DNA of 64,000 bases from contig NZ_QGDL01000006.1 in assembly GCF_003149245.1 (NCBI RefSeq), positions 124,001 to 188,000 of the forward strand, read 5' to 3'. The notes beneath the pieces were generated by a model that searched no databases, was not told where the DNA came from, and was given only the letters and a program-made list of their open reading frames with translations. Positions within the stretch are counted from its first letter, which is position 1. Every line of letters begins with the position of its first letter. Of this stretch, positions 9,979 through 42,598 are shown in pieces. The position numbers and the translations under genes are program-made. The DNA is from Faecalicatena orotica (lineage in GTDB: Bacteria; Bacillota; Clostridia; Lachnospirales; Lachnospiraceae).

Positions 9979-10539
9979 CTACCATTCCAGAGAAGCCGGT
10001 TCACTGCCGAAGTTTTTCTCGACAAGTGCACAGTATTCTTCGAAAACCGGTATCCCTTTGAAATCCTCTTTCAGGGCATCCCGGATCCCCTTATAATACC
10101 ATCCCATTGCAGCCTTGCTGTTCATGCGGAACCTCTTCCACAAATCTTCTCCCGCTGCCGGATAATCCCTGTCAATGTCGCGCATATTCGACAGCTTATC
10201 AGCCAGCCCGATCATCTTTATTTCCATCGGCGCATCTTTCAGGTGGCGGATCGTAGTCCCTTTCCGTTCCTCCCACGTTTTGGACTTGTCCTCACTTTCC
10301 TGCCGGACCATCGCAGCCACCCGTTCCCCAAATTCTGCCTGTAAAATCTCTTCCGTTACTCCCTTACAGTCCTCGATCGTATCATGAAGGACCGCGGCAC
10401 AGATGATATCTTCATCCTGTGTCATAGTTGCCACAATATCTGCCACTTCAATCGGATGCACAATATACGGCCGCTTCGTCCCTTTCCGAAACTGCCCCTC
10501 ATGTGCTCTTGCTGCAAATTCAATGGCTTCATCAATCAT
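9979..10539 (-). CDS. RelA/SpoT-type HD-domain protein (possible small alarmone hydrolase)
   Basis: A 186-residue single-domain HD protein. Its motifs read like the hydrolase half of RelA/SpoT enzymes: AHEGQFRKGTKRPYIVHP (His28), LHDTIED (His52, Asp53, Glu56, Asp57) and ADKLSNMRDIDRDY. No synthetase, TGS or ACT domain follows. It may remove pyrophosphate from (p)ppGpp like Mesh1-type enzymes, or act on another nucleotide; this is inferred from motifs only. The start at 10539 follows GAGGAGGAGCAGGAG and overlaps the end of the RND exporter gene by eight bases, implying coupled translation. Confidence 0.8.
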   Translation of the reverse strand: MIDEAIEFAARAHEGQFRKGTKRPYIVHPIEVADIVATMTQDEDIICAAVLHDTIEDCKGVTEEILQAEFGERVAAMVRQESEDKSKTWEERKGTTIRHLKDAPMEIKMIGLADKLSNMRDIDRDYPAAGEDLWKRFRMNSKAAMGWYYKGIRDALKEDFKGIPVFEEYCALVEKNFGSEPASLEW

Positions 10540-13500
10540 TCTCCTGCTCCTCCTCAATGCCTTCCCGCAATCTCGCCTTTTCCCTGTTATGGAATAAAGA
10601 ATAGATGCACGGTACCACAAACAGTGTTAACACAGTTCCATATATGAGACCGCCGATTGTTACGATCGCCATCGGCTGAACCATATCCGCCCCTGAACCA
10701 AACCCGAGTGCCATTGTCGACAGCCCAAGGATCGTCGTCAGGGCCGTCATGATAATCGGGCGCAGCCTTGTCCTTCCGGCCTCCACTAGAGCTTCCTTCT
10801 GCTCCATTCCCGATGCAGTCAGCTGGTTCGTATAATCAATGAACACAATACCATTATTTACAATAATTCCGGATAACATTACAAAACCGATCATGGCAAT
10901 CACGCTGACCGGACTTCCTGTCATCCACAATCCGAACAGACCTCCCGTAAATGCAAGAGGTACAGTAAACATGACAATAAACGGAGATCTTAAAGACTGG
11001 AACTGGGCAACCATGATCAGATACATAAACACAACCGCAAGCCCGAGCATCTTAAACAGCTCTGTCATTGTCTCATTAATTGTCTCGTCCTCTCCCTTCA
11101 TCTCTATCGTATAACCGTCCGGCAGCTTATAATTCTTCAAGGCCTTTTCCACACGCCCGCTCACCAGACCGATGTTGTCATCTTCTTCAATCTCCGCCGT
11201 CACATTCATATACCGGCTCTGTGCATCCCTCGAGATCGACTGCAGCCCGTAGCCTGTCTCGAACGAAGCGATATCCTTCAGGGCAATCTGTTCTTTTGAA
11301 CCATCCTGCTTCGTCACATCCAGTTTCAGGTCCCGGACAGACTCTCTTGTCAGGTCCTGATTCTTCTGCTCTGCCACAATAATACCGATGGATGACGTAT
11401 CCAGGTCCAGACTGGTAGAAGAAGCCGGGTCTTTCAGCTTCTTTGCCAGTTCCTGATACACCTGGGCGACAGTTAAATTATGGGAAATCGCTTTCTTCTT
11501 ATCTACAACGACCCTGAGTTCCTCCGTCGTCTCATCCAAACCGTCCGAGACATTCTTTGTTCCCTTCACATTTTGCACGATTTCAGCAATTTCTTTTGCC
11601 ATCCTCTGCAGCTGATCCAGATCACGGCCCTTTATCTGGACAGAAATTCCGGAAGAACCAAGCGCACTCATATCCATGTCGGACATGCTGATCGAGAGTT
11701 CGACACCTTCCTCTTTTGCAATCTTCTCTATTGATTTCTGCAGTTTTTCATCAGACATTGTCCGCTTTTCGGCCAGCAGGGCATAGAATTCCACCTGATT
11801 CGTGACAGTGTTCCCGCCGCCCATCATTCCGCCACTCATAGCCATGCCGCCTACATCACCAATATCTTTCAGTTTCATTAATTGATTAGTAAACTGATCG
11901 GCTGCCTTCGCCGTATCTTCCAGAGAAGTTCCCTCCGGTGTCGTGATCGACATACTAATCTGTGTGCTCTGCATATCCGGCATAAAAGCAGTTCCCCTGG
12001 ATATTGCCAGAACCCCGCTCAGGACAAACAGCGCCAGTGCCCCGGCCAGGACAAGAGGCCTGAAACGCAGTGCCTTCCGCAGAAGTTTTTCATAACCATT
12101 CTTCAAATGATGGAAAAATCCGGATTCCTTCTGCTCTGTTCTCTTTAGCAGTCCGGCCGACATCATCGGCACAAGCGTCAGTGCAACGACCAGACTTGCT
12201 AGCAGCGAATATGCGATGGTCAGTCCCATATCAACAAAAAGCTGTCTTGCAATACCCTCCGTAAATACAATCGGAAGGAATACACACACCGTCGTCAGCG
12301 TAGATGCCATGATCGCACCTGCTACCTGCTGTGCACCCTTGATTGCGGCTTCCTTTGCTGTGGCATGTTCTTCATTTCTCATCCGGTAAATGTTCTCAAT
12401 GACAACAATCGAGTTGTCCACCAGCATCCCTACGCCGAGGGCAAGTCCTGAAAGTGAAATCACATTCATCGTAACCCCGCTGAAATACATCAGGACAATG
12501 GCCGCCAGTATACTGATCGGGATGGAGCAGGCAATTACAAAAGTCGGCCTGATATCCTTTAGAAACAGCAGCAGGATCAGAATCGCCAGAATTGCACCGA
12601 ATACCAGATTCTGGAGAACGGACCCGATTACCATGTCAATATACACGCCCTGGTTCATCAGGACTACCACTTTTATATCCTTGTTTTCCTTCTGGATCTG
12701 TTCAAACCTGTCCAGAATGCGGTCTGTCACATCCCCCGTAGAATAGCCGGTCTGCTTCTGCACCTGGAGCAGGATCCCGTTCTCTTTATTTAACTTGGCA
12801 TATGTGTCCGCCGCATTATCCGTCTGTTCCACATCGGCAATATCTGAAAGCTTGATGGGGGTAATGCCTTCCATATCAACCAGAACCAGATTCTTCAGGT
12901 CCTCTATTGAATCAAATTTATCTCCGACGCGGATTAAATAATCGATCCCGTCTTCCTTTACATACCCTGCCGGCATGTTAAAGTTCTGCGCTGTCAGTAC
13001 CGTCTGTATCATCTCCGCAGTCAGCATGGATTTGACATCCGCACTTGCTTTCGCCTGCTCTTTAGCAGATTTCAGTTCTTCTTCCCTGCTCTTTAATTCA
13101 GCCTCACCGACAGCGAGCTGTGCAGAAGCCTCACTCATCTGAAGTGCACCTTCGAGCTGTGCACTGCTAAGCTGTGCCCTCGCCTGGGCCAGTGTAAGGG
13201 TTCCTGCATTTAACTGGTCCTGCACCTGGGTCAGCATCTCCTTTGCCTGTGCAAGTTCCGCCTGCTTATCCGCTATCGTCTGTCTGCCTTCCGCAACCTG
13301 GGCCAGTCCCTGGTCGATAACTGCCATTGACTGGTCGTATTGCTCCAGAAGGGCCAGTTTCCCGGCCAGAGCCGCCCTCGCAATCTGAAGTTCTGAAGTT
13401 TCTCCGTTTTCCGCGATTGCCTGAAGTACCTGCTGATATTCTGCTTCGATCTGCTCTCTGCCTGCATTTAGTTCTTCCAGCTCCTGCTTCTGTTCAAGCA

Positions 13501-14362
13501 ATGCCTGTTCGCTGGCATCAACCTGTGCCTGAAACTGTTCCAGTGCCACCTCCGCCAGTTCAAGTTCACTCATCTTCGTGCTGACTTCCAGTTTTCCCTG
13601 TGCCAGTTCGGATTCACTCACAGCTAGCTGTTCCTCTGCCTGCGCCATCTGTCCGGCAGCCTGGTTCTTCCCGTCTTCAAGCTGCGCTTTTCCGCTTTCC
13701 ATCTGCGCTTTTGCCTGATTCAGAGCGTCGGATGCCTCATTAAACTTCTTGTCCAGCTGCCCCTGAATGGAGCTGTCTACATTACTTACTTTATTTTCCT
13801 TTACCGTAACACGGATTGTCTGTTCCACATCTCCGAATGTACTGACTGACGCAACCCCTTCCAGACTCTCAATCTCCGGAAGGACTTCTTCCTCTATAAT
13901 CCTTGTCGTCTCTGACGGTTCAGCCCCGTCCACACTGATGGCCGGTATCATGACAGGCATCATGGCAGGGTTCAGTTTCATAATAATAGGGTTCCCTACT
14001 GTATCCGGCCAGTAGCCGCTTATCTGGTCCAGACTTTCCCTCATCTCGATCGTGGCCGAGTCCATATTGGCTGTCTGTTCAAACTCCAAAATGACTGTGG
14101 ATGCATTTTCCCTTGATGATGAACTTACATTCTTGATGTTGCTGATCGTAGCCATCGCCTGTTCCACCGGCTTTGTAACCGCAGTCTCCACCTCCTCGGG
14201 ACTGGCTCCCGGATATGTAGTCATGACAATGGCATAAGGGAGATTCATGTCCGGCAGAAGATCCACCGTCATTTTATCGAAAGACACAAATCCCAGAATC
14301 AGAATCAATACAACAGTAACAACCACTGTATACGGTCTCTTCACACTGAACTTAGATAACAT
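10532..14362 (-). CDS. RND-family exporter with a large coiled-coil insertion
   Basis: A 1276-residue transporter of the AcrB/SwrC type. TM1 is at residues 11-29, and PN-type porter domain sequence follows (AIVMTTYPGASPEEVETAVTKPVE). The conserved TM4 region is GLALGVGMLVDNSIVVIENI, and the second repeat includes GIVVNNGIVFIDYTNQL. Residues about 203-442 are an Ala/Gln/Glu-rich coiled coil inserted at the start of the docking subdomain, before the usual LTAQNFNMPAG segment. Canonical AcrB has about 1050 residues; the extra length is this coil. No membrane-fusion or outer-membrane partner is encoded nearby, as expected in a Gram-positive. Substrate unknown. It is read from a promoter at 14418-14446 and is followed by an overlapping HD gene. 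Confidence 0.92.
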   Translation of the reverse strand: MLSKFSVKRPYTVVVTVVLILILGFVSFDKMTVDLLPDMNLPYAIVMTTYPGASPEEVETAVTKPVEQAMATISNIKNVSSSSRENASTVILEFEQTANMDSATIEMRESLDQISGYWPDTVGNPIIMKLNPAMMPVMIPAISVDGAEPSETTRIIEEEVLPEIESLEGVASVSTFGDVEQTIRVTVKENKVSNVDSSIQGQLDKKFNEASDALNQAKAQMESGKAQLEDGKNQAAGQMAQAEEQLAVSESELAQGKLEVSTKMSELELAEVALEQFQAQVDASEQALLEQKQELEELNAGREQIEAEYQQVLQAIAENGETSELQIARAALAGKLALLEQYDQSMAVIDQGLAQVAEGRQTIADKQAELAQAKEMLTQVQDQLNAGTLTLAQARAQLSSAQLEGALQMSEASAQLAVGEAELKSREEELKSAKEQAKASADVKSMLTAEMIQTVLTAQNFNMPAGYVKEDGIDYLIRVGDKFDSIEDLKNLVLVDMEGITPIKLSDIADVEQTDNAADTYAKLNKENGILLQVQKQTGYSTGDVTDRILDRFEQIQKENKDIKVVVLMNQGVYIDMVIGSVLQNLVFGAILAILILLLFLKDIRPTFVIACSIPISILAAIVLMYFSGVTMNVISLSGLALGVGMLVDNSIVVIENIYRMRNEEHATAKEAAIKGAQQVAGAIMASTLTTVCVFLPIVFTEGIARQLFVDMGLTIAYSLLASLVVALTLVPMMSAGLLKRTEQKESGFFHHLKNGYEKLLRKALRFRPLVLAGALALFVLSGVLAISRGTAFMPDMQSTQISMSITTPEGTSLEDTAKAADQFTNQLMKLKDIGDVGGMAMSGGMMGGGNTVTNQVEFYALLAEKRTMSDEKLQKSIEKIAKEEGVELSISMSDMDMSALGSSGISVQIKGRDLDQLQRMAKEIAEIVQNVKGTKNVSDGLDETTEELRVVVDKKKAISHNLTVAQVYQELAKKLKDPASSTSLDLDTSSIGIIVAEQKNQDLTRESVRDLKLDVTKQDGSKEQIALKDIASFETGYGLQSISRDAQSRYMNVTAEIEEDDNIGLVSGRVEKALKNYKLPDGYTIEMKGEDETINETMTELFKMLGLAVVFMYLIMVAQFQSLRSPFIVMFTVPLAFTGGLFGLWMTGSPVSVIAMIGFVMLSGIIVNNGIVFIDYTNQLTASGMEQKEALVEAGRTRLRPIIMTALTTILGLSTMALGFGSGADMVQPMAIVTIGGLIYGTVLTLFVVPCIYSLFHNREKARLREGIEEEQEND

Positions 14363-32957: not shown

Positions 32958-35501
32958 TTAATCTTCCGCAATCCTCAGTCTTTCTACGACTGTGTTCTTT
33001 ACAGCTCCCTTATAGCTTAGTATCGGAACGATGACAGATATCAGCAGCAGTACCGGTGTGCATAGCAGAACCGGCAGGATCCTGAAGTGCCATGTGAATA
33101 TTGCCATCTGCCCGGCTACGGCATTTACGATCACATAACCGACAGCCATTCCCACAGTACAGGTCACCAGCAGGGTGAGCACTGCATATAGCAGCCCCTC
33201 AAACTGCAGCATCTTTTTCTGCTGCTGCCCTGTCATACCGATGGCTTCGAGCGTAGCCAGCTCTTTCTTCCGTGAAAGAATCGAGGTGATTGTTACATTT
33301 ACAAAGTTCAGTATTCCGATCAGTGCAAGGATAAAGCTTAAGAATCCTCCGGCCAGTGCATACACGTTTTTCAGATTATCAAACATTGCCACGTAATCTG
33401 CCTTCGTTTTCCCGTCCAGATCCGTATTAACCTTTTCACAGTAGTTCTTCATCCATGAAGTAATCTCTGCCCCTTTTCCCTCCTCTGCATCAAAAATCGT
33501 TTTCATCGGCTGCGTCTCCCCATACCGGGCCATGAACTCGGTATCCGGCATGATGTAAGCGACTGGCATAGCAGAATGGTACCACTGTGACTGCAGGGCA
33601 TATGGAAGTTCTCCTACGGCCATTACCTCATAAGCTTTACTTTCTCCGCTGCTGGATTCCAGCATAACTGTATCTCCTATATTCAAATACGGGTGCTCAA
33701 AACTGGTGTGGTCACCCCATTCAAATGAATTGACAATCACATAATTCCCAGTCTTAAATTTTTCCCAGTCCAGCTTTCCATCTGCCAGATTTATCTTGTC
33801 TGCTGCTTCCTTATTTACGCCATATATATCGATGTTACTGGCCTTTGACTCCCTCATCTGCCGGATTTCGCCGGCGACATCCTGATTGGAAAAGAATTTT
33901 TTGTACTCCTGCATATAGGTCTCCATATTATTCCATTCAGTATCCAAAAAAGAATGATATTCAGTATGGATATATATGTTTCCGATGTCCTTCACACCAT
34001 CCTGCTTCACAAGTTCCTGCTGAAATTCCTTTGTAACGCCTGCCGTATTTGTATATTGGCTTCCAAAATTTGTCATGGACGCATCTGTAACCATATAATT
34101 TGAAACCATATAAGTAGACAGGTATTTATCCATGTCAAACCCCTTCACCATCGTGTAAACGCTGTTCAGGAGTATCAGGCTCAGGGACAGGGATAAAACG
34201 ACAAGAACCAGTTTTTTAGGATTCCGTTTAACATTGGCCATCGCCATATGGAATGGGGATGCTTTTTTTGTCCGCTTCTTTTTTCCCTTTTTTTGTTTTT
34301 CTGTATATTTCACAGCCTCCACCGGTGATACCTTTGCTGCGATCCGGCATGGTTTGATACAGCTGATATAAACAGTTACGATTGTAAAAACAGCGGCCCC
34401 TATAAATATGAGCGGATTTGCAGAATAGATCTGTACATCATTTGTTAAAAGGCTGAGTACCGATGGAGCCAGCAGCCTGCCCGTCAGAAAACCAAGCAGC
34501 AGCCCGGTGGGAATTCCTAATAAGCACAGCATCCATGCCTGTCTTCGCACGAGTTTTTTCAGTTGTTTTCCCGTCGTACCAATGGTTTTTAGCAGGCCGT
34601 AAAAACGGATGTCACTAAAAATATTCAAGTAGAAGATGTTATAAATGATCAGATAGCCTGACAGCATGATCAACACCATAACTACTACAAGCATCATCAC
34701 TGTTGTTGGATCGACCGAGGAGAATCCATATGCCCAGTTCACACCATAGTCTACTTTTGTCGTATCGAATCCGCATCGCTCGCAGAGCTGAAGCATCTGT
34801 TTTTCGATATCCCAGGAACTGCTGAAGTTAAAATTGGGATTCATGTAACCACTGTAATCCCCGCTATTTTCCGCTTCATAAAAGGGGGTCGTTTCCAGCG
34901 GGGCCGTCTTATCGCTGTATTGACGGGATACCAGTATTTCCTGTGCACGAAGTGCTTTATCTCCCTCCCAGTATCCGCACAGACGGAAGGTCTGTTCCAC
35001 TACTTCATCGTGGACCCTGATCTGAAGTTCTACCTTTTCCCCCAATTTATGCGGGATCTCCAGTGCGTCCAATACAATGGTGCTCATCGCAATATCATCT
35101 ATTTTCTCCGGCATCTTTCCTGTTGTCGGGTAAGAAAAACTGTTTTTTGCATCCTGATCTTCGAAATACCGGACCTCCCCCTGTATTTTATTTAGTTCTG
35201 GATTTTCAGTAAAACCTACTACGATGTTGTAGGATAAATCTCTGATTTTGCCATCTTCCTTTAGTGTTTCGTATTCTTCCCATGTAAAATTTTTGAACCC
35301 TGCATGGCTCCTTCCCCCGACCTGGCGCAGACTGGATTCTGTACTGCTTTGCATGATACTGCCCCCAATGGAAAAGATCGTCGTAAAAAGGACGGCAGTC
35401 AGGGCAATTGCCAGCACACTGATGATATTTTTCTTTTTCCGGGCCCCCAGTGTCCGGGCTGAAAGCTTTCTAATGATCTTTTTATTTTTCACTCTAGCCA
35501 C
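32958..35501 (-). CDS. Large FtsX-type ABC permease, module 2
   Basis: An 847-residue permease with the same plan as module 1: N-terminal helix after [21 protein letters not shown], extracellular domain, FtsX triplet ([21 protein letters not shown] onward), fifth helix ([20 protein letters not shown]), second extracellular domain and final triplet. I place the start at a GTG (35501) because GGAGGT lies seven bases before it; this start overlaps the ATPase stop by eight bases. It forms a transporter with the ATPase upstream, probably for peptides or lipopeptides. The substrate is not readable. Confidence 0.88.
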
Positions 35502-36270
35502 GGTATCCACCACCCTTGCCTTCTGTTTTCCCTGACGGCCGAGATGTTGTGCGCCTGCCTGTCTGCGGAATGCGGTCATCCGGTATGTCGCTGAACTGTC
35601 CTGCTTTTCTGACCTTTCCGTCTTCTATGCGGATAATCCTGTCAGCCATCTGTGCGATTTCCTCATTATGGGTAATCATGACGATTGTCTGTCCGAACTG
35701 GTCGCTGGTCACTTTCATCAGGCTCAGTACATCCTGGCTCGTATTGGAATCCAGATTTCCTGTCGGTTCATCCGCGAGTACGATAGCCGGCTTTGCGGCC
35801 AGTGCCCGTGCAATCGCCACTCTCTGCTGCTGGCCCCCTGAGAGCTGTCCCGGCAGGCTGTCCAATTTCTGTTCCAGACCGAGTACCTGTACGATCTCAC
35901 GGATGTATTTTCTATCCACCTTATTTCCATCCAGTTCTATAGGGAGTGTGATGTTTTCTTCCACATTTAGTACTGGTACCAGATTGTAGTTCTGAAAGAT
36001 AAATCCAATCTTTCGTCTCCGGAAAATGCACAACGCATCATCCTTCAGTGAAAAGATGTCTTTGTCATCCACATATACTTTTCCCGATGTAGGCCTGTCC
36101 AGACCTCCCATCATGTGGAGCAGGGTTGATTTTCCGCTTCCGGAAGTTCCGACAACTGCGGCAAATTCTCCTTCCATGACAGACAGGCTGACGCCATCTA
36201 ATGCTTTTACTGTATTTTCACCTGATCCATAATATTTCTTGAGTTCCTCTGTTCTCAATATTCCGTTCAT
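35494..36270 (-). CDS. ABC transporter ATP-binding protein, module 2
   Basis: A 258-residue ATPase of the same subfamily as module 1: [65 protein letters not shown]. It extends about 35 residues beyond the module 1 homologue in a Gly/Arg/Thr-rich tail ([20 protein letters not shown]). AAAAGGAGG precedes the ATG. The stop overlaps the GTG of the permease. Confidence 0.95.
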
Positions 36271-36316
36271 ATTCTGCCTCCTTTTTATTCATGTAATTTT
36301 AGAAATCGCTAAAATA

Positions 36317-36440
36317 GAGTTTCGCTTGCGAAACTCGCGCCTGCGGCGGTCGCATCGCGACATCTACCTTATACGCCGCAGTGCGCATCCCCCGGAGGGT
36401 TTATTATTTCATAGGACGTACTTTCCTATGAAATAATAAA
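36317..36440. repeat. Structured multi-hairpin element (possible MITE-like repeat or RNA)
   Basis: Within 124 bases there are four stacked inverted repeats. They are GAGTTTCGC/GCGAAACTC (36317-36336), an outer GC-rich stem GCGCCTGCGGCG/CGCCGCAGTGCGC (36337-36348 with 36374-36386) enclosing GTCGC-ATC-GCGAC (36349-36361), and a perfect 17-bp stem TTTATTATTTCATAGGA (36400-36416) with its complement (36424-36440) and a seven-base loop. Base composition differs sharply from its surroundings. It lies between a kinase terminator and the ABC ATPase start. It could be a mobile miniature element or a leader RNA. Confidence 0.6.
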
Positions 36441-36473
36441 AAGCCTATTCACTTCTATGAATAGACTTTAACA
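36441..36473 (-). terminator. Terminator after the module 2 sensor kinase
   Basis: A 12-bp stem of AAAGCCTATTCA and TGAATAGACTTT (one G-U pair) is followed on the minus strand by TTTTTATTATTT. Part of that run also belongs to the adjacent 17-bp stem. Confidence 0.7.
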
Positions 36474-36502
36474 TATGAATCTTTCCAGACTCTTTCCGAA
36501 AT

Positions 36503-37363
36503 CTAACAGTTCTGAAAGTTTTCACGCGGCAGATATACGGCAAAAGACGCACCTGTCTGGTTCGTCGTGCTTACTTTGATATAACCGTGTTCCTTTTTCA
36601 GAATCTCCCGCGCCAGATACAGGCCGAGCCCCACGCCTTCCTTCTCCTGAAACTGACTTCCACGGTAAAACCGCTGAAAGATTTTAGGGATCTCTTCCTC
36701 CGTAATTCCCGGTCCCTCATCCTGTATGCAGATACTGACAAACATGGGATATTCTCTGATGGCTACGGTCACACAGCTTTTCTCTTCTGTGTATTTCAGC
36801 GCATTATCCAGAATGTTATAGACGGCCTCTGATGTCCATTTTCTGTCGAAACAGGCCTGACATTCATCGGTCCATCCCTTCTTTACAATCTGGATTCCCC
36901 GTTTCACCTGTTTCTCCTTCCCGCGCAGGACCAGTTCTTCCAGCATCGGCTTAAGCGGCTGCTTCTGAGGGGATACCTGTATAATATTCGTCTCAAGACG
37001 TGACATCTTGACAAGGGACTGAATCAGGGATTCCAACAGGTCTGTCTGGGCCATCAGTCTTTTTGCCAGTTCCTTGTCTTCTCCTTCCAGTTTTTCCTCA
37101 ATAATTTCCCCGTAGAGCCGGATGTTAGAAATCGGTGTCTTCACCTGATGTGAAATATCTGAAACCAGTTCCTTGACAGCCTTTTTTTCCTTCTCCACAT
37201 TCTGCCTGCTGAGTGCAGATGCACCGAGAAACCGCTTCCACTTTACCTCCAGCTTGGACAGTTCGCTCTCGTCATAGTCAGACTCCTGAAAGTTTCCCGA
37301 AGTGGCCTCATCCAGCATCATATTCAGCGTTTCATAAGTATTTTTCCTAAACCGCAGCCCCAT
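36503..37363 (-). CDS. Soluble sensor histidine kinase, module 2
   Basis: A 286-residue kinase with no membrane segment: it begins MGLRFRKNTYETLNMML and goes directly into the dimerisation helix. Phospho-acceptor His is in SDISHQVKTPISNIRLYGE, and the ATPase domain shows NILDNALKYTE, DEGPGI and EKEGVGLGLYLAREIL. AGGCGG precedes the ATG, 16 bases after the regulator stop, so the start seems right. It therefore lacks the helix present in its module 1 counterpart and must receive its signal in the cytoplasm or through the ABC transporter. Confidence 0.88.
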   Translation of the reverse strand: MGLRFRKNTYETLNMMLDEATSGNFQESDYDESELSKLEVKWKRFLGASALSRQNVEKEKKAVKELVSDISHQVKTPISNIRLYGEIIEEKLEGEDKELAKRLMAQTDLLESLIQSLVKMSRLETNIIQVSPQKQPLKPMLEELVLRGKEKQVKRGIQIVKKGWTDECQACFDRKWTSEAVYNILDNALKYTEEKSCVTVAIREYPMFVSICIQDEGPGITEEEIPKIFQRFYRGSQFQEKEGVGLGLYLAREILKKEHGYIKVSTTNQTGASFAVYLPRENFQNC

Positions 37364-37379
37364 CTATATTCCCGCCTCT

Positions 37380-38054
37380 CTATTTCCAGACATACCCTAC
37401 TCCATATACGTTCAAAATATGTTCCGGGTTTGCAGGTTCCTTTTCCAGCTTTGCTCGAAGCCTGCTGACTGCAACCGGAAGTGCATTTTCATCCACATAT
37501 TCCATTCCGTCTGTCCATACCTTATCTATCATAACATCCCGGGGTATGGTATTTCCCCGGTTCTCCAAAAGGACCTGCAGAAGCTTCTGCTCCGTCCTGC
37601 TTAATACAAGACTCTGTCCGTCTCTCTTATAAACCATTTTTACCGTATCCAGCAAGAGATGCCCATCCTCATACCGCCCTCTGCCATGATCAGAAAAAGA
37701 CAGCCGCAGAAGATTCTCGATCCTCGCTCTCAAAACTGCAAGGCTGAACGGCTTGGTCACATAATCGTTCGCCCCCAGTTCAAACCCCATCACCTCATTC
37801 ACCTCCAGGTCATTCGCCGTCAGCATCAGCACCGGCCGTGAGCACGACTGGCGGTATTCCTTCAGGAAATCATATCCATTCCCGTCGGGGAGGTTAATAT
37901 CTAAAATAACAAGCCCAAACTCATTCCCCTGTACAGCAGAACGCGCTTCATGCAGCGTGTAACACTGGGTGAAACGGTATGAAGTTTTTCCAAGACCCAA
38001 AACAATTCCCTCATTTAATGCTGAATCATCCTCAACGATCAAGATATCCGTCAT
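37380..38054 (-). CDS. OmpR-family response regulator, module 2
   Basis: A 224-residue regulator with receiver Asp52 (ILDINLPDGNG), DYVTKPFS, and a winged helix (LSRTEQKLLQVLLENRGNTIPRDVMIDKVW). AAGGAG lies before the ATG. It is the paralogue of the module 1 regulator in the same gene order. Repeat copy C sits directly upstream of its ribosome site, and no ordinary promoter is obvious between it and the rubredoxin terminator. Confidence 0.92.
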   Translation of the reverse strand: MTDILIVEDDSALNEGIVLGLGKTSYRFTQCYTLHEARSAVQGNEFGLVILDINLPDGNGYDFLKEYRQSCSRPVLMLTANDLEVNEVMGFELGANDYVTKPFSLAVLRARIENLLRLSFSDHGRGRYEDGHLLLDTVKMVYKRDGQSLVLSRTEQKLLQVLLENRGNTIPRDVMIDKVWTDGMEYVDENALPVAVSRLRAKLEKEPANPEHILNVYGVGYVWK

Positions 38055-39693: not shown

Positions 39694-40140
39694 TTACACC
39701 TCCTCTACATAAATCGCTTTTTTCGGACAGGAGGCTACACAGGATGGTTCTCCTCCCGCGTTTACGCAGAAATCACACTTGATCACTTTACTTTTCGTCA
39801 CCTGATCCGGCTTTAAAACGCCGAACGGGCAGTTCATCACACACATAAAGCAGGACCCGCACCGGGTTTCATCATAAAACACGTGTCCGCTTTCCGCATC
39901 CTTGCGAAGCGCCCCGCTCATGCATGATTTCACACATTCCGGGTCAGCACAGTGCCGGCAGAACAAGGGTTTGTAGTGTCCCTCTGCATCCTTTAGGATA
40001 AAATTACGGGACTCATTTTTAGGGTCTGTCAAATCCAGATCATATATCGTCCCCGGCGTTTCCCTGTGCGCCTGCATACAGGCGGCGGAACAGTTCTTAC
40101 AGCCGTCGCATTTCTCATAATCGATCATGATACGTTTCAT
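39694..40140 (-). CDS. cooF: CooF-type polyferredoxin
   Basis: A 148-residue iron-sulphur protein with four Cys clusters: CDGCKNCSAACMQAH, CRHCADPECVKSC, CGSCFMCVMNCP and CDFCVNAGGEPSC followed by CPKKAI. The spacing fits four [4Fe-4S] centres, as in CooF and HycB-type electron carriers. It should carry electrons from CooS to the FAD oxidoreductase. It starts 15 bases after cooS. Confidence 0.92.
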   Translation of the reverse strand: MKRIMIDYEKCDGCKNCSAACMQAHRETPGTIYDLDLTDPKNESRNFILKDAEGHYKPLFCRHCADPECVKSCMSGALRKDAESGHVFYDETRCGSCFMCVMNCPFGVLKPDQVTKSKVIKCDFCVNAGGEPSCVASCPKKAIYVEEV

Positions 40141-40155
40141 TTTTACCGCCCCTTT

Positions 40156-42039
40156 CTAAATCTGAAGTCCCCGGCGTTTTTCCAGAATAATCTCTTCCAG
40201 AATCTTCGCAGATTCCTTTGCATCCGGGTTAATAATCACCTGTCCCCCGGTCAGCTCTTTCATATCCTCTGTCAGCACTTTTACAGCCACCTTACTTCCA
40301 GTCATGAATGGCGGCAGCCCAAGGTGCAGTGGAAGCCCGAGTGATAGTCCGTAGCACCCATCAGCCAGCGCCTGCTCTTCCAGCCATTGTGCCGCAGAAA
40401 GTACAAGCGGCAGCTGCGGAAGGTCCACGCCTAGTTCTTCTGCCAGTTCAGTTGCTACGATCTCAAGGCGGCCGATTGCAAGACATGGTCCAAAGTTCAA
40501 TACAGGCGGGATGCCAAGGCTCTCACAGACAGCCCTCAGCTTAGGCCCTGCATATTTTGCCGCTTCTGGTGTCATAAGTCCGCAGTTCTCAATTCCCCCT
40601 GAAGAACATCCGGCCGTCAGGACAATGATATCCTTCGCAATCAGCTCCTTCACGAGGTCTACCGTCAGTACATCGTGCCCGCCTGCAGTCAGGTTAGAAC
40701 ACCCAACCACGCCGGCAACACCCTTTATATCCCCTGATACAATCAGGTCGATCAACGGTTTCCAGCTTCCGCCAAGGAATTTCTTAAGGGAGATTTCACT
40801 GACACCTGTCAGCGTGTTATCATAACCGTGCTCTTTCATCAGGTTCATCGGTACGCTGCCTCTGCGTGCACTGTAAGCCGCAACCACCTCATCAATAATC
40901 TCCTCTGTCACAGCGGGACGGTTCTCAAAATCAAATTCCTTCAGCTCTGCATTTGCCTTTTTCGCCACATTGTCAATACATATCTGCTTAATCTTTAATT
41001 CATCGCAGATTGGTTCGATCCCCGGCAGTGTACAGTTAAATTCCGAAATAACAGCATCAATCCCACCCGTTGCCAGTATCGCTTCACTTGTATAGTTATT
41101 GCCTGCATGACCATCAAAGATATCCTCATAATGGGCGCCGCGCAGCTGCAGATCCTGTCCTACACAGGTACACCCGACCAGCTTGAAGCCTTTCGCCCCG
41201 GCCTTTTCTGCCTTCTTTACAACATCCTCATCCGTCAGACGGTCCTGCAGGAAGGTGAACATCGAATGCTGGTGTCCCGTAATCATAATATTAATATAAT
41301 CCGGATCAATGACCCGCAGTCCAACCGGTGCAAAACGGATCTCCGGCTCCCCAAGCACTACGTCGTTGAGAAGATTCGTCAGTACCAGCCCGTAAATTCC
41401 TGTGGAAATCCCCAGTTTTAAACAGTCCAGCAGCATATTGACCGGATCTGAGTTCAAATTTGTAGAACATTTTACAACTCCGTGGAACACTTCCGACTTC
41501 GCACCACCCGGGAGAATTCCGAGTTCTTTCCATTTCTTATAACGCGGAGCATATGCCATTTTTTCCGTGAGCTGCATCTTCTCATATTCAGGGAGGTAAA
41601 GGTCTTTCAGCACTGCGTCTGCAACCGCCTCGGCCCTCCTGTGGATGTCCTCTTCCTCAATGCCAAAAATCGCGGCCAGCCTGTTCAGGGTATCCGGTCC
41701 TTTGATTTCACCTTTTGACTTTGCAACGTTCTTAACATTCAGTGCCGTATTTTCAACGACATGTATGTAACACCCTGAACCGGAAGCGACAGCCCGCAGA
41801 AAGTTTCTGGCTACGATTGTGTCAGCATCTGCCCCGCAGATTCCTCTCGGGGCCTCCGGTGTGATGCGGCACGGCCCGTTAGCACAGAGCCTGCAGCAGA
41901 CTCCCTGAAGCCCAAATGCACATTTCGTGCTCTGTCCTTCCACACGATGGTGGGACGTCTCCATCGGCAGTCCGGCAATAAAGCCTTCTAATGGCTTATC
42001 AGCGCTCTTACATGTAGTGCATCCATAACATTGATTCAT
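40156..42039 (-). CDS. cooS: Anaerobic carbon monoxide dehydrogenase catalytic subunit (atypical active site)
   Basis: A 627-residue Ni-Fe CO dehydrogenase. The D-cluster Cys40/Cys48 and B-cluster Cys49, Cys52, Cys57, Cys68 are in place. C-cluster ligands line up by spacing with the Carboxydothermus enzyme: His258, Cys292, Cys336, Cys447, Cys478, Cys519. However the catalytic His and Lys (His93 and Lys563 there) fall on Tyr91 (SGSGCYIHVVEN) and Gln556 (WLEEQALADG). An extra CxxCxxC (Cys4, 7, 10) stands at the N-terminus. It should interconvert CO and CO2, but the substitutions raise doubt. No acetyl-CoA synthase genes are nearby. GAGGAGG precedes the ATG. Confidence 0.93.
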   Translation of the reverse strand: MNQCYGCTTCKSADKPLEGFIAGLPMETSHHRVEGQSTKCAFGLQGVCCRLCANGPCRITPEAPRGICGADADTIVARNFLRAVASGSGCYIHVVENTALNVKNVAKSKGEIKGPDTLNRLAAIFGIEEEDIHRRAEAVADAVLKDLYLPEYEKMQLTEKMAYAPRYKKWKELGILPGGAKSEVFHGVVKCSTNLNSDPVNMLLDCLKLGISTGIYGLVLTNLLNDVVLGEPEIRFAPVGLRVIDPDYINIMITGHQHSMFTFLQDRLTDEDVVKKAEKAGAKGFKLVGCTCVGQDLQLRGAHYEDIFDGHAGNNYTSEAILATGGIDAVISEFNCTLPGIEPICDELKIKQICIDNVAKKANAELKEFDFENRPAVTEEIIDEVVAAYSARRGSVPMNLMKEHGYDNTLTGVSEISLKKFLGGSWKPLIDLIVSGDIKGVAGVVGCSNLTAGGHDVLTVDLVKELIAKDIIVLTAGCSSGGIENCGLMTPEAAKYAGPKLRAVCESLGIPPVLNFGPCLAIGRLEIVATELAEELGVDLPQLPLVLSAAQWLEEQALADGCYGLSLGLPLHLGLPPFMTGSKVAVKVLTEDMKELTGGQVIINPDAKESAKILEEIILEKRRGLQI

Positions 42040-42093
42040 AGTTGTACCTCCTCAATACTTGATAATTTTAGTCCACTTTGTTTTATAAAATTT

Positions 42094-42138: not shown

Positions 42139-42528
42139 TTAAAAAAGGTCTGACAGTTTCCGTGCCCTTAATTCCTTCATCAATACGCCCTGTATCTTTG
42201 CGAGCTCCGTATGTACCCTGCACCTGCTGCCACCGGAATTCCTGCTGCAGCTTTCTCTGAGGCATGGCATGATCAAAGGCTCCTCATCGACTGCTGTCAC
42301 CACATCATACAGATTCAGTTCCTCAAGCGGCTGATTCAGCCGGCACCCGCCCGAAGCACCCCGCCCAACCTCAATCAGGCCGGCTCTCCTAAGCTTCTTC
42401 AATATCTTATAAGCAAACGCCTCCGGAATCTCTTCCGCCTGACATATCTCTTTTACCGTATGCTTTTCCCCGTCTCTTATGGAACGAAGCATACGGATCG
42501 CATAATCATTCTCTCTTGTTAAAAGCAT
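42139..42528 (-). CDS. Rrf2-family regulator with probable iron-sulphur site
   Basis: A 129-residue winged-helix protein. The N-terminal DNA-binding unit is TRENDYAIRMLRSIRDG with EIPEAFAYKILKKLRRAGLIEVGRGASGG. Three Cys in MPCLRESCSRNSGGSRCRVH sit where IscR and NsrR hold their iron-sulphur cluster. It probably senses iron-sulphur status, redox state or NO and controls the cooS-cooF operon 99 bases downstream. The ATG at 42528 follows GAGGTG; an earlier in-frame ATG has no ribosome site. Confidence 0.9.
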   Translation of the reverse strand: MLLTRENDYAIRMLRSIRDGEKHTVKEICQAEEIPEAFAYKILKKLRRAGLIEVGRGASGGCRLNQPLEELNLYDVVTAVDEEPLIMPCLRESCSRNSGGSRCRVHTELAKIQGVLMKELRARKLSDLF

Positions 42529-42554
42529 GAAAGCACCTCTCATCTTTTGTTAAA

Positions 42555-42583
42555 ATTTTAGCATACTGGACTTTTTTTGTCAA
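42555..42583 (-). promoter_or_regulatory. Promoter of the Rrf2/cooS region
   Basis: Perfect minus-strand -35 TTGACA and -10 TAAAAT have 17-base spacing, 27 bases before the regulator ATG. Confidence 0.8.
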
Positions 42584-42598
42584 CTTTAAATATGAACA

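Follow-up and report, generated by a model that had tools for sequence, protein, structure and literature searches.

The cooS gene of the window, by which we mean the whole 64,000-nucleotide stretch of Faecalicatena orotica DNA analysed here, codes for a clade C, group C-1 homologue of carbon monoxide dehydrogenase (CODH) and belongs to an Rrf2-cooS-cooF-FNOR operon, as seen from its residue pattern, its grouping with relatives, the gene order and the predicted fold. Our leading interpretation, still a tentative one with a probability of about 0.48, is that the product is a redox enzyme of CODH fold that exchanges electrons with NAD(H) and whose C-site, remodelled and perhaps poor in Ni, acts on CO slowly or not at all. 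The residue signature and the operon of clade C have been published before; what is added here is the link of Thr291 to the catalytic His position, the genomes that hold only the clade C type and yield no CooC match, and a pair of operators.

Residue signature and predicted fold of the cooS product

Against TIGR01702, the anaerobic CODH family, the product scores 754.5 bits (cut-off 478); it is also matched by Pfam Prismane, and its best-scoring solved relative is the Thermococcus CODH 6t7j (344 bits). The AF2 model, built with 15 clade C rows, reached a pLDDT of 83.8, with values below 50 at residues 1-8, 33-56 and 579-581, so that the model is poor for the N-terminal Cys motif and for some of the D/B cluster region. 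It aligned best with CODH chains (6t7j, Z 56.1 over 605 residues; Carboxydothermus CooS-V of clade D-1, PDB 7b7q, Z 52.8), while class III hybrid cluster protein (PDB 7e0l) showed a distant fold relation, with Z 28.1 versus 44.6 to 56.1 for CooS-type CODH chains; folds missing from the structure-match list carry no meaning. Since metals are absent from the model, it is evidence for the scaffold and not for metal content.

For comparison within the family, TIGR01702 was searched in 397 genomes, with 82 above the cut-off, and 120 CODH-like genes were compared: 36 of clade C type (from 35 genomes), 54 canonical, 24 of clade B type, five of clade D type and one fragment with one stop (L121), which was counted under clade B. 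Three partial matches from G348 and G390 were left out, both genomes being classed as canonical by score only, and position 556 is missing from locus L097.

Residue assignments were taken from a MAFFT alignment of window CooS with four PDB chain segments. The column of Tyr91 holds the catalytic His in three of the four chains and Tyr in CooS-V, and that of Gln556 holds the catalytic Lys in all four; neither the His nor the Lys of active Ni,Fe-CODH is found in window CooS. This replacement, which the sequence-only reading had claimed, is borne out by the PDB chains and by the family loci alike: both residues recur in 36/36 clade C loci, and thus represent neither a one-off nor a sequencing error. 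According to PDB titles, H93A/K563A variants of CODH-II exist, although our literature search found no publication on them.

All six C-cluster ligands are kept, namely His256 and the five cysteines (Cys292, Cys336, Cys447, Cys478, Cys519) that align with the C-cluster ligand cysteines. The same reading had the cysteines right and rightly called for a His ligand, but it picked His258, the column of which is Pro in 54/54 canonical loci; the actual ligand is the His of a “GH” pair two residues earlier, which is His in 36/36 clade C, 54/54 canonical, 24/24 clade B and 5/5 clade D loci. The Glu that replaces the first C-cluster Cys in the hybrid cluster protein/CooS-V type is not seen here, that position being Cys292. 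The D-cluster motif, C40-x7-C48-C49, is of type II (C-x(7-13)-CC), and the extra N-terminal CxxCxxC noticed earlier is indeed present as C4, C7 and C10, with Cys at these positions in 30, 29 and 36 of the 36 clade C loci, respectively. Invariant throughout these loci are Tyr91, Gln556, His256, the five ligand cysteines, Thr291 and also His93, which lies two residues past Tyr91 in a column that is Asp in the 54 canonical loci. As for shifted residues that might supply the lost pair, no Lys occurs at positions 554-558 in any of the 36 loci, while the invariant His93 leaves a substitute for the His possible and, judging from the alignment, could serve as a base.

This pattern is that of a published group. 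In the relevant passages of Inoue 2019 (PMC6344411), all four clade C groups have completely conserved C-cluster residues together with His to Tyr and Lys to Gln replacements; group C-1 is defined by an additional N-terminal Cys motif of two to four Cys, and C-1 and C-2 accompany FNOR, CooF and an NsrR/IscR-like regulator. Window CooS shares with C-1 the ligands, the Tyr/Gln pair, the type II D-cluster, the N-terminal Cys motif and the FNOR, CooF and regulator genes, and we found no difference in the defining features given in those passages. It had also been proposed, from the altered proton-transfer residues beside intact clusters, that the enzyme might have another substrate, another direction or a sensing role; loss of the acid-base pair with retention of the ligands does hint at a different rate, substrate or role, but it is a signature of clade C as published (PMC6344411) and no oddity of one protein.

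The operon, its regulator and its relatives

The gene order on the minus strand is Rrf2 gene, cooS, CooF-like ferredoxin and FNOR (Table 1), which matches the gene cluster of C-1 and C-2 (FNOR, CooF COG0437 and an NsrR/IscR-like regulator), the ferredoxin being assigned through Fer4 families. Adjacent CooF and FNOR genes accompany cooS in 33/36 family clade C loci, some of which are cut by contig ends (exceptions: L038, L042 and L125).

Table 1. Features of the cooS operon, in positions of the window
Feature	Position	Strand	Basis
FNOR, FAD/NAD(P) oxidoreductase with rubredoxin-reductase C-terminal domain, 407 aa	38466..39689	-	Pyr_redox_2 + Rubredoxin_C
cooF-like ferredoxin, 148 aa, several 4Fe-4S motifs	39694..40140	-	Fer4 families
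cooS, clade C (group C-1) CODH homologue, 627 aa	40156..42039	-	TIGR01702, tree placement, AF2 fold
Gln replacing catalytic Lys	codon 556, 40372..40374	-	alignment with PDB chains + family loci
Thr where D. vulgaris CODH has Cys301	codon 291, 41167..41169	-	alignments, family loci, tree rows
C-cluster His ligand, His256	codon 256, 41272..41274	-	alignment with PDB chains + family loci
Tyr replacing catalytic His	codon 91, 41767..41769	-	alignment with PDB chains + family loci
N-terminal C4xxC7xxC10 motif	codons 4-10, 42010..42030	-	window translation; clade C loci
IscR-like palindromic operator (putative) before cooS	42055..42079	-	palindrome pattern
Rrf2-family regulator, 134 aa, Cys94/99/108 triad	42139..42543	-	TIGR00738 + PF02082
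Second operator copy (putative) before Rrf2 gene	42563..42587	-	palindrome pattern

A one-genome-per-species scan gave 354 relatives, and the best 80 of these were retained; among the matches listed, Faecalicatena faecalis (95%) is the nearest named relative. In these best 80 of 354, CooF and FNOR are both within the compared stretch in 77, Gln556 is present in 79 (Pro in one), Thr291 in 80/80, and Tyr91 likewise in 80/80, the last count being partly by construction because one of the two search patterns contained Tyr91.

Matches to the window Rrf2 protein were found in 18/36 family clade C loci and in 41/80 named loci (the best 80 of 354), and Cys94, Cys99 and Cys108 are kept in all 41 relatives found near the latter. 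The triad fits an Fe-S-binding Rrf2 protein, in which these cysteines would be the ligands. The two operator copies are palindromes that we take to be of the IscR kind. Similar palindromes precede cooS in some relatives, and a loose form of the operator occurs in 21/79 named upstream stretches versus 0/79 single shuffles of the same letters. A pattern built from the two window copies, with three mismatches allowed, was found at three sites in the 5.7-Mb genome (backward control, 0), two of them being the window copies themselves. The third (G000:C12:29712-29736, L234 5713-5737) has two mismatches and may be due to chance; in the 380 bases that follow it, no frame of at least 90 aa begins on the same strand, and on the other strand there is a small frame that looks helix-turn-helix-like by eye.

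We also considered a regulon common to the operon and the hybrid cluster protein of the same genome (L002 on G000:C17, 743 bits with the hydroxylamine reductase model), and rejected it, as the operator was not found at L002. The frame after L002 resembles, by eye, an aldo/keto reductase with a ferredoxin-like end. Downstream of FNOR, a response regulator, a histidine kinase and an ABC ATPase, these three assigned by family matches, and a large membrane protein follow in a row (32958-38054, minus strand), a layout that is presumably that of peptide-antibiotic sensing transporters. Elsewhere in the window, positions 10532-14362 (minus strand) code for a 1276-aa AcrB/RND-family protein (PF00873); the Lachnospiraceae, near relatives of the genome that carries it, are taken as Gram-positive.

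In a quick, unrooted 74-row tree, for which the program flags possibly false joining of long branches, 26 rows of the Tyr/Gln type, including the window, fall on one side of a branch with support of 100, and the canonical and B groups are split from the C and D-like groups, also with support of 100. Published clade C proteins are not represented in the tree by any accession, and window CooS owes the name “clade C” to its residue signature and operon. On the clade D side there is a CODH-like group of 11 from phylum-level genomes (L253-L256 and L258-L264) with Tyr91, Met291, Lys556 and the full set of ligand cysteines, accompanied by CooF and FNOR in 6/11 within the short stretches compared. In two further loci, L291 and L293, Asn replaces the catalytic His and Val stands in the Cys301 column, with the Lys retained; the Asn/Lys pair corresponds to group D-2 in Inoue 2019 (PMC6344411, in part).

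Thr291 and the distribution of CooC

A third residue of the C-site is replaced as well. In D. vulgaris CODH, Cys301 directly precedes the ligand Cys302 and is termed strictly conserved in CODHs; the C301S variant was inactive, Ni-free and not activatable by Ni, and was likened to enzyme made without CooC (passages of PMC6168284). No Cys is found at this position in window CooS, where Thr291 sits between the shared Gly289 and Cys292, and Thr is present in 128/128 unique clade C rows sampled. Among 243 unique rows, which include window CooS and the four PDB chain segments and two of which have a gap at position 91, Cys291 was found in 91/92 rows with His91, the exception being the Ser of the engineered C301S chain (PDB 6dc2), and in 0/149 rows with Tyr or Asn at 91, where residue 291 is Thr in clade C and Met, Ile or Val in others. 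Leaving the engineered chain aside, the catalytic His and the Cys301 equivalent are kept or lost together; since the rows are related, this link stands for one tree split and not for 149 independent events. A targeted literature search, outside subscription papers and supplements, yielded no publication treating both Cys301 (C301) and clade C, and the position is absent from the clade C passages of Inoue 2019 (PMC6344411).

A single CODH and no match to ACS were found in the genome of the window (5.7 Mb, 98% complete). Among the 35 family genomes with clade C genes, 17 have a canonical CODH and 17 a full-strength ACS match, counted from PF03598 matches of at least 199 bits (weaker matches, at most 41 bits and in frames near 250 aa, such as that of G148 with 30.6 bits, were uncounted). 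In 16/35, the window's genome included, neither another CODH type nor a full-strength ACS match was found, and these genomes are 94 to 100% complete. The family search had scored at most three candidates per genome; rescoring all candidates in 19/35, including the 16, brought nothing new, with G308 holding two clade C genes. A general auxiliary role beside an active CODH was accordingly rejected, since 16 of the 35 genomes have no other CODH to assist. Co-occurrence with a canonical CODH is nonetheless enriched, at 17/35 clade C genomes versus 32/362 others (Fisher p 2e-8, uncorrected for kinship).

A full-length CooC match is present in 16 of the 17 family clade C genomes with a canonical CODH (the remaining one, G316, gave 59.6 bits only) and in none of the 16 genomes that hold the clade C type alone. 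Among 17 phylum-level clade C genomes, in which 30 of the 52 listed CODH matches were classified, CooC matches of at least 148 bits were found in 11; the six others (G752, G748, G737, G513, G696 and, with 64.5 bits, G753) have no canonical CODH among the matches classified. In phylum-level genome G664 (completeness 84%), CooC is matched close to the end of a contig, and the only CODH detected is of clade C. In addition, 16/16 genomes holding clade B only, each with a single CODH confirmed, gave no strong CooC match (best, 70.9 bits), and clade B rows keep His and Cys291; absence of CooC therefore does not imply a Ni-free site.

Possible functions of the clade C enzyme

Published surveys describe clade C neighbours as FeS proteins (72%), oxidoreductases (71%) and transcription regulators (58%) and suggest redox or regulatory roles (PMC13056359), place the FNOR type in gut Lachnospirales (PMC11338639), and state that roles are still unclear (PMC13240472). 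In our preferred reading, an electron path would connect NAD(H) with the C-site by way of the FNOR flavin, CooF and the B/D clusters. The C-site itself would be assembled differently, and probably be Ni-poor, because the His, the Lys and the Cys301 equivalent are all replaced and no CooC is found in genomes holding only the clade C type, and CO/CO2 interconversion would be slow or nil. Given such a site, the likeliest job would be to carry out NADH-linked redox chemistry on some small molecule, with the enzyme switched by the local regulator, predicted to be of the Fe-S type. The reading draws on the invariance of Thr291, its co-loss with His91 and the Ni-free state of C301S, which resembles CooC-less enzyme (PMC6168284, in part), on the contrast in CooC between 16/17 and 0/16 genomes, and on the single CODH, without ACS, of a genome whose cooS type travels with CooF and FNOR in 33/36 loci. 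Against it stand the six retained metal ligands, one of which is Glu in CooS-V, the clade B enzymes that keep His and Cys291 and yet come without a strong CooC match, the CooC match of G664, the origin of the His91/Cys291 link in one split, and the presence of the Rrf2 gene in only 18/36 family loci.

Close behind comes a simpler proposal, quite possible although we hold it somewhat less probable, that the protein is a real but slow Ni-CODH, oxidising CO at the C-cluster with His93 or Tyr91 as base and passing electrons via CooF and FNOR to NAD+, so as to scavenge traces of CO. The complete ligand set, the invariant His93 (36/36), the CooF and FNOR genes of the operon and FNOR-type proposals already in print (PMC11338639, PMC13240472, in part) are all in its favour, and so is the CooS of T. 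kivui, which with CooF1 gave 13.9 U/mg for CO:MV and 0.5 U/mg for CO:Fd, with 213.9 and 111.5 for AcsAB (PMC8683389). Growth on CO reportedly depends on this CooS, which counts against the preferred reading. This protein (TkCODH-I) resembles ours in its clade C label (PMC13056359) and in the order cooS then cooF; it differs in oxidising CO, its named neighbours are cooF1 and a hypothetical gene, and its place in clade C is taken here from that label. It is described as an early, distinct branch of clade C, with caution advised as the strain was CO-adapted (PMC13056359), and two published T. kivui primer stretches gave no match among the loci compared. Evidence from C. autoethanogenum cuts both ways: when acsA was knocked out and cooS1 and cooS2 were left intact, CO was generated and not consumed, which speaks for the preferred reading, while the cooS1 knockout grew more poorly on CO, which speaks against it, and better on H2-CO2 (PMC4895105, in part). 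We take cooS1 to be the clade C enzyme named for that host in PMC13056359; as in the window, it lies upstream of ferredoxin-type and oxidoreductase genes, but its host also has a CODH/ACS, and none was detected in the window's genome. The slow CODH is further disfavoured by Thr at the Cys301 site in every unique clade C row and by the missing CooC match in all 16 clade-C-only family genomes.

It is improbable that the CODH scaffold houses a reductase resembling hybrid cluster protein, acting on hydroxylamine, NO or peroxide. The precedent is CooS-V, which falls with window CooS at the main tree split and has an Fe/S/O cluster and slow hydroxylamine turnover without CO oxidation or CO2 reduction (passages of PMC9311411) and which, like window CooS, has Tyr at the catalytic His and no Cys at the Cys301 position (Ile there); an adjoining NAD(P) oxidoreductase gene and an Rrf2 regulator with a Cys triad would also suit such an enzyme. 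CooS-V differs, however, in having Glu for the first C-cluster Cys, which is kept as Cys292 in 36/36 clade C loci, and in retaining the Lys that is Gln in clade C, and its NO reduction was not above background (PMC9311411). Moreover, a hybrid cluster protein is encoded elsewhere in the genome, and the operator of the operon was not found at its gene. Less probable still is a redox or gas sensor without turnover, akin to the regulatory function that PMC13056359 proposes for clade C: the adjoining regulator gene and the shifts in growth upon deletion of clade C enzymes (PMC13056359 and PMC4895105, in part) point that way, but a mere sensor would have no need of the co-encoded electron-transfer pair, and could serve no other CODH in 16/35 genomes; the regulator gene, too, is found in only 18 of the 36 loci.

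Taking the preferred reading further, the whole His-less “CODH” branch, here clades C and D, may also have lost the Ni-insertion Cys. Clade C, although all its ligands are kept, would then be an Fe-S enzyme that is naturally free of Ni or otherwise different; drawing on NADH through FNOR and CooF, it would reduce some substrate that is not CO2, and it would be widespread among bacteria that lack other CO metabolism. In this extended form we consider the reading possible but less likely than not. Clade C genes, 179 among 1380 putative CODHs in a human gut survey, are counted there as putative CO users (PMC11338639, in part). If clade C indeed neither holds Ni nor turns over CO, such counts would overstate CO use; if it does oxidise CO, the reaction would work in the absence of the canonical His, Lys and Cys301, and the accepted mechanism would have to be revised.
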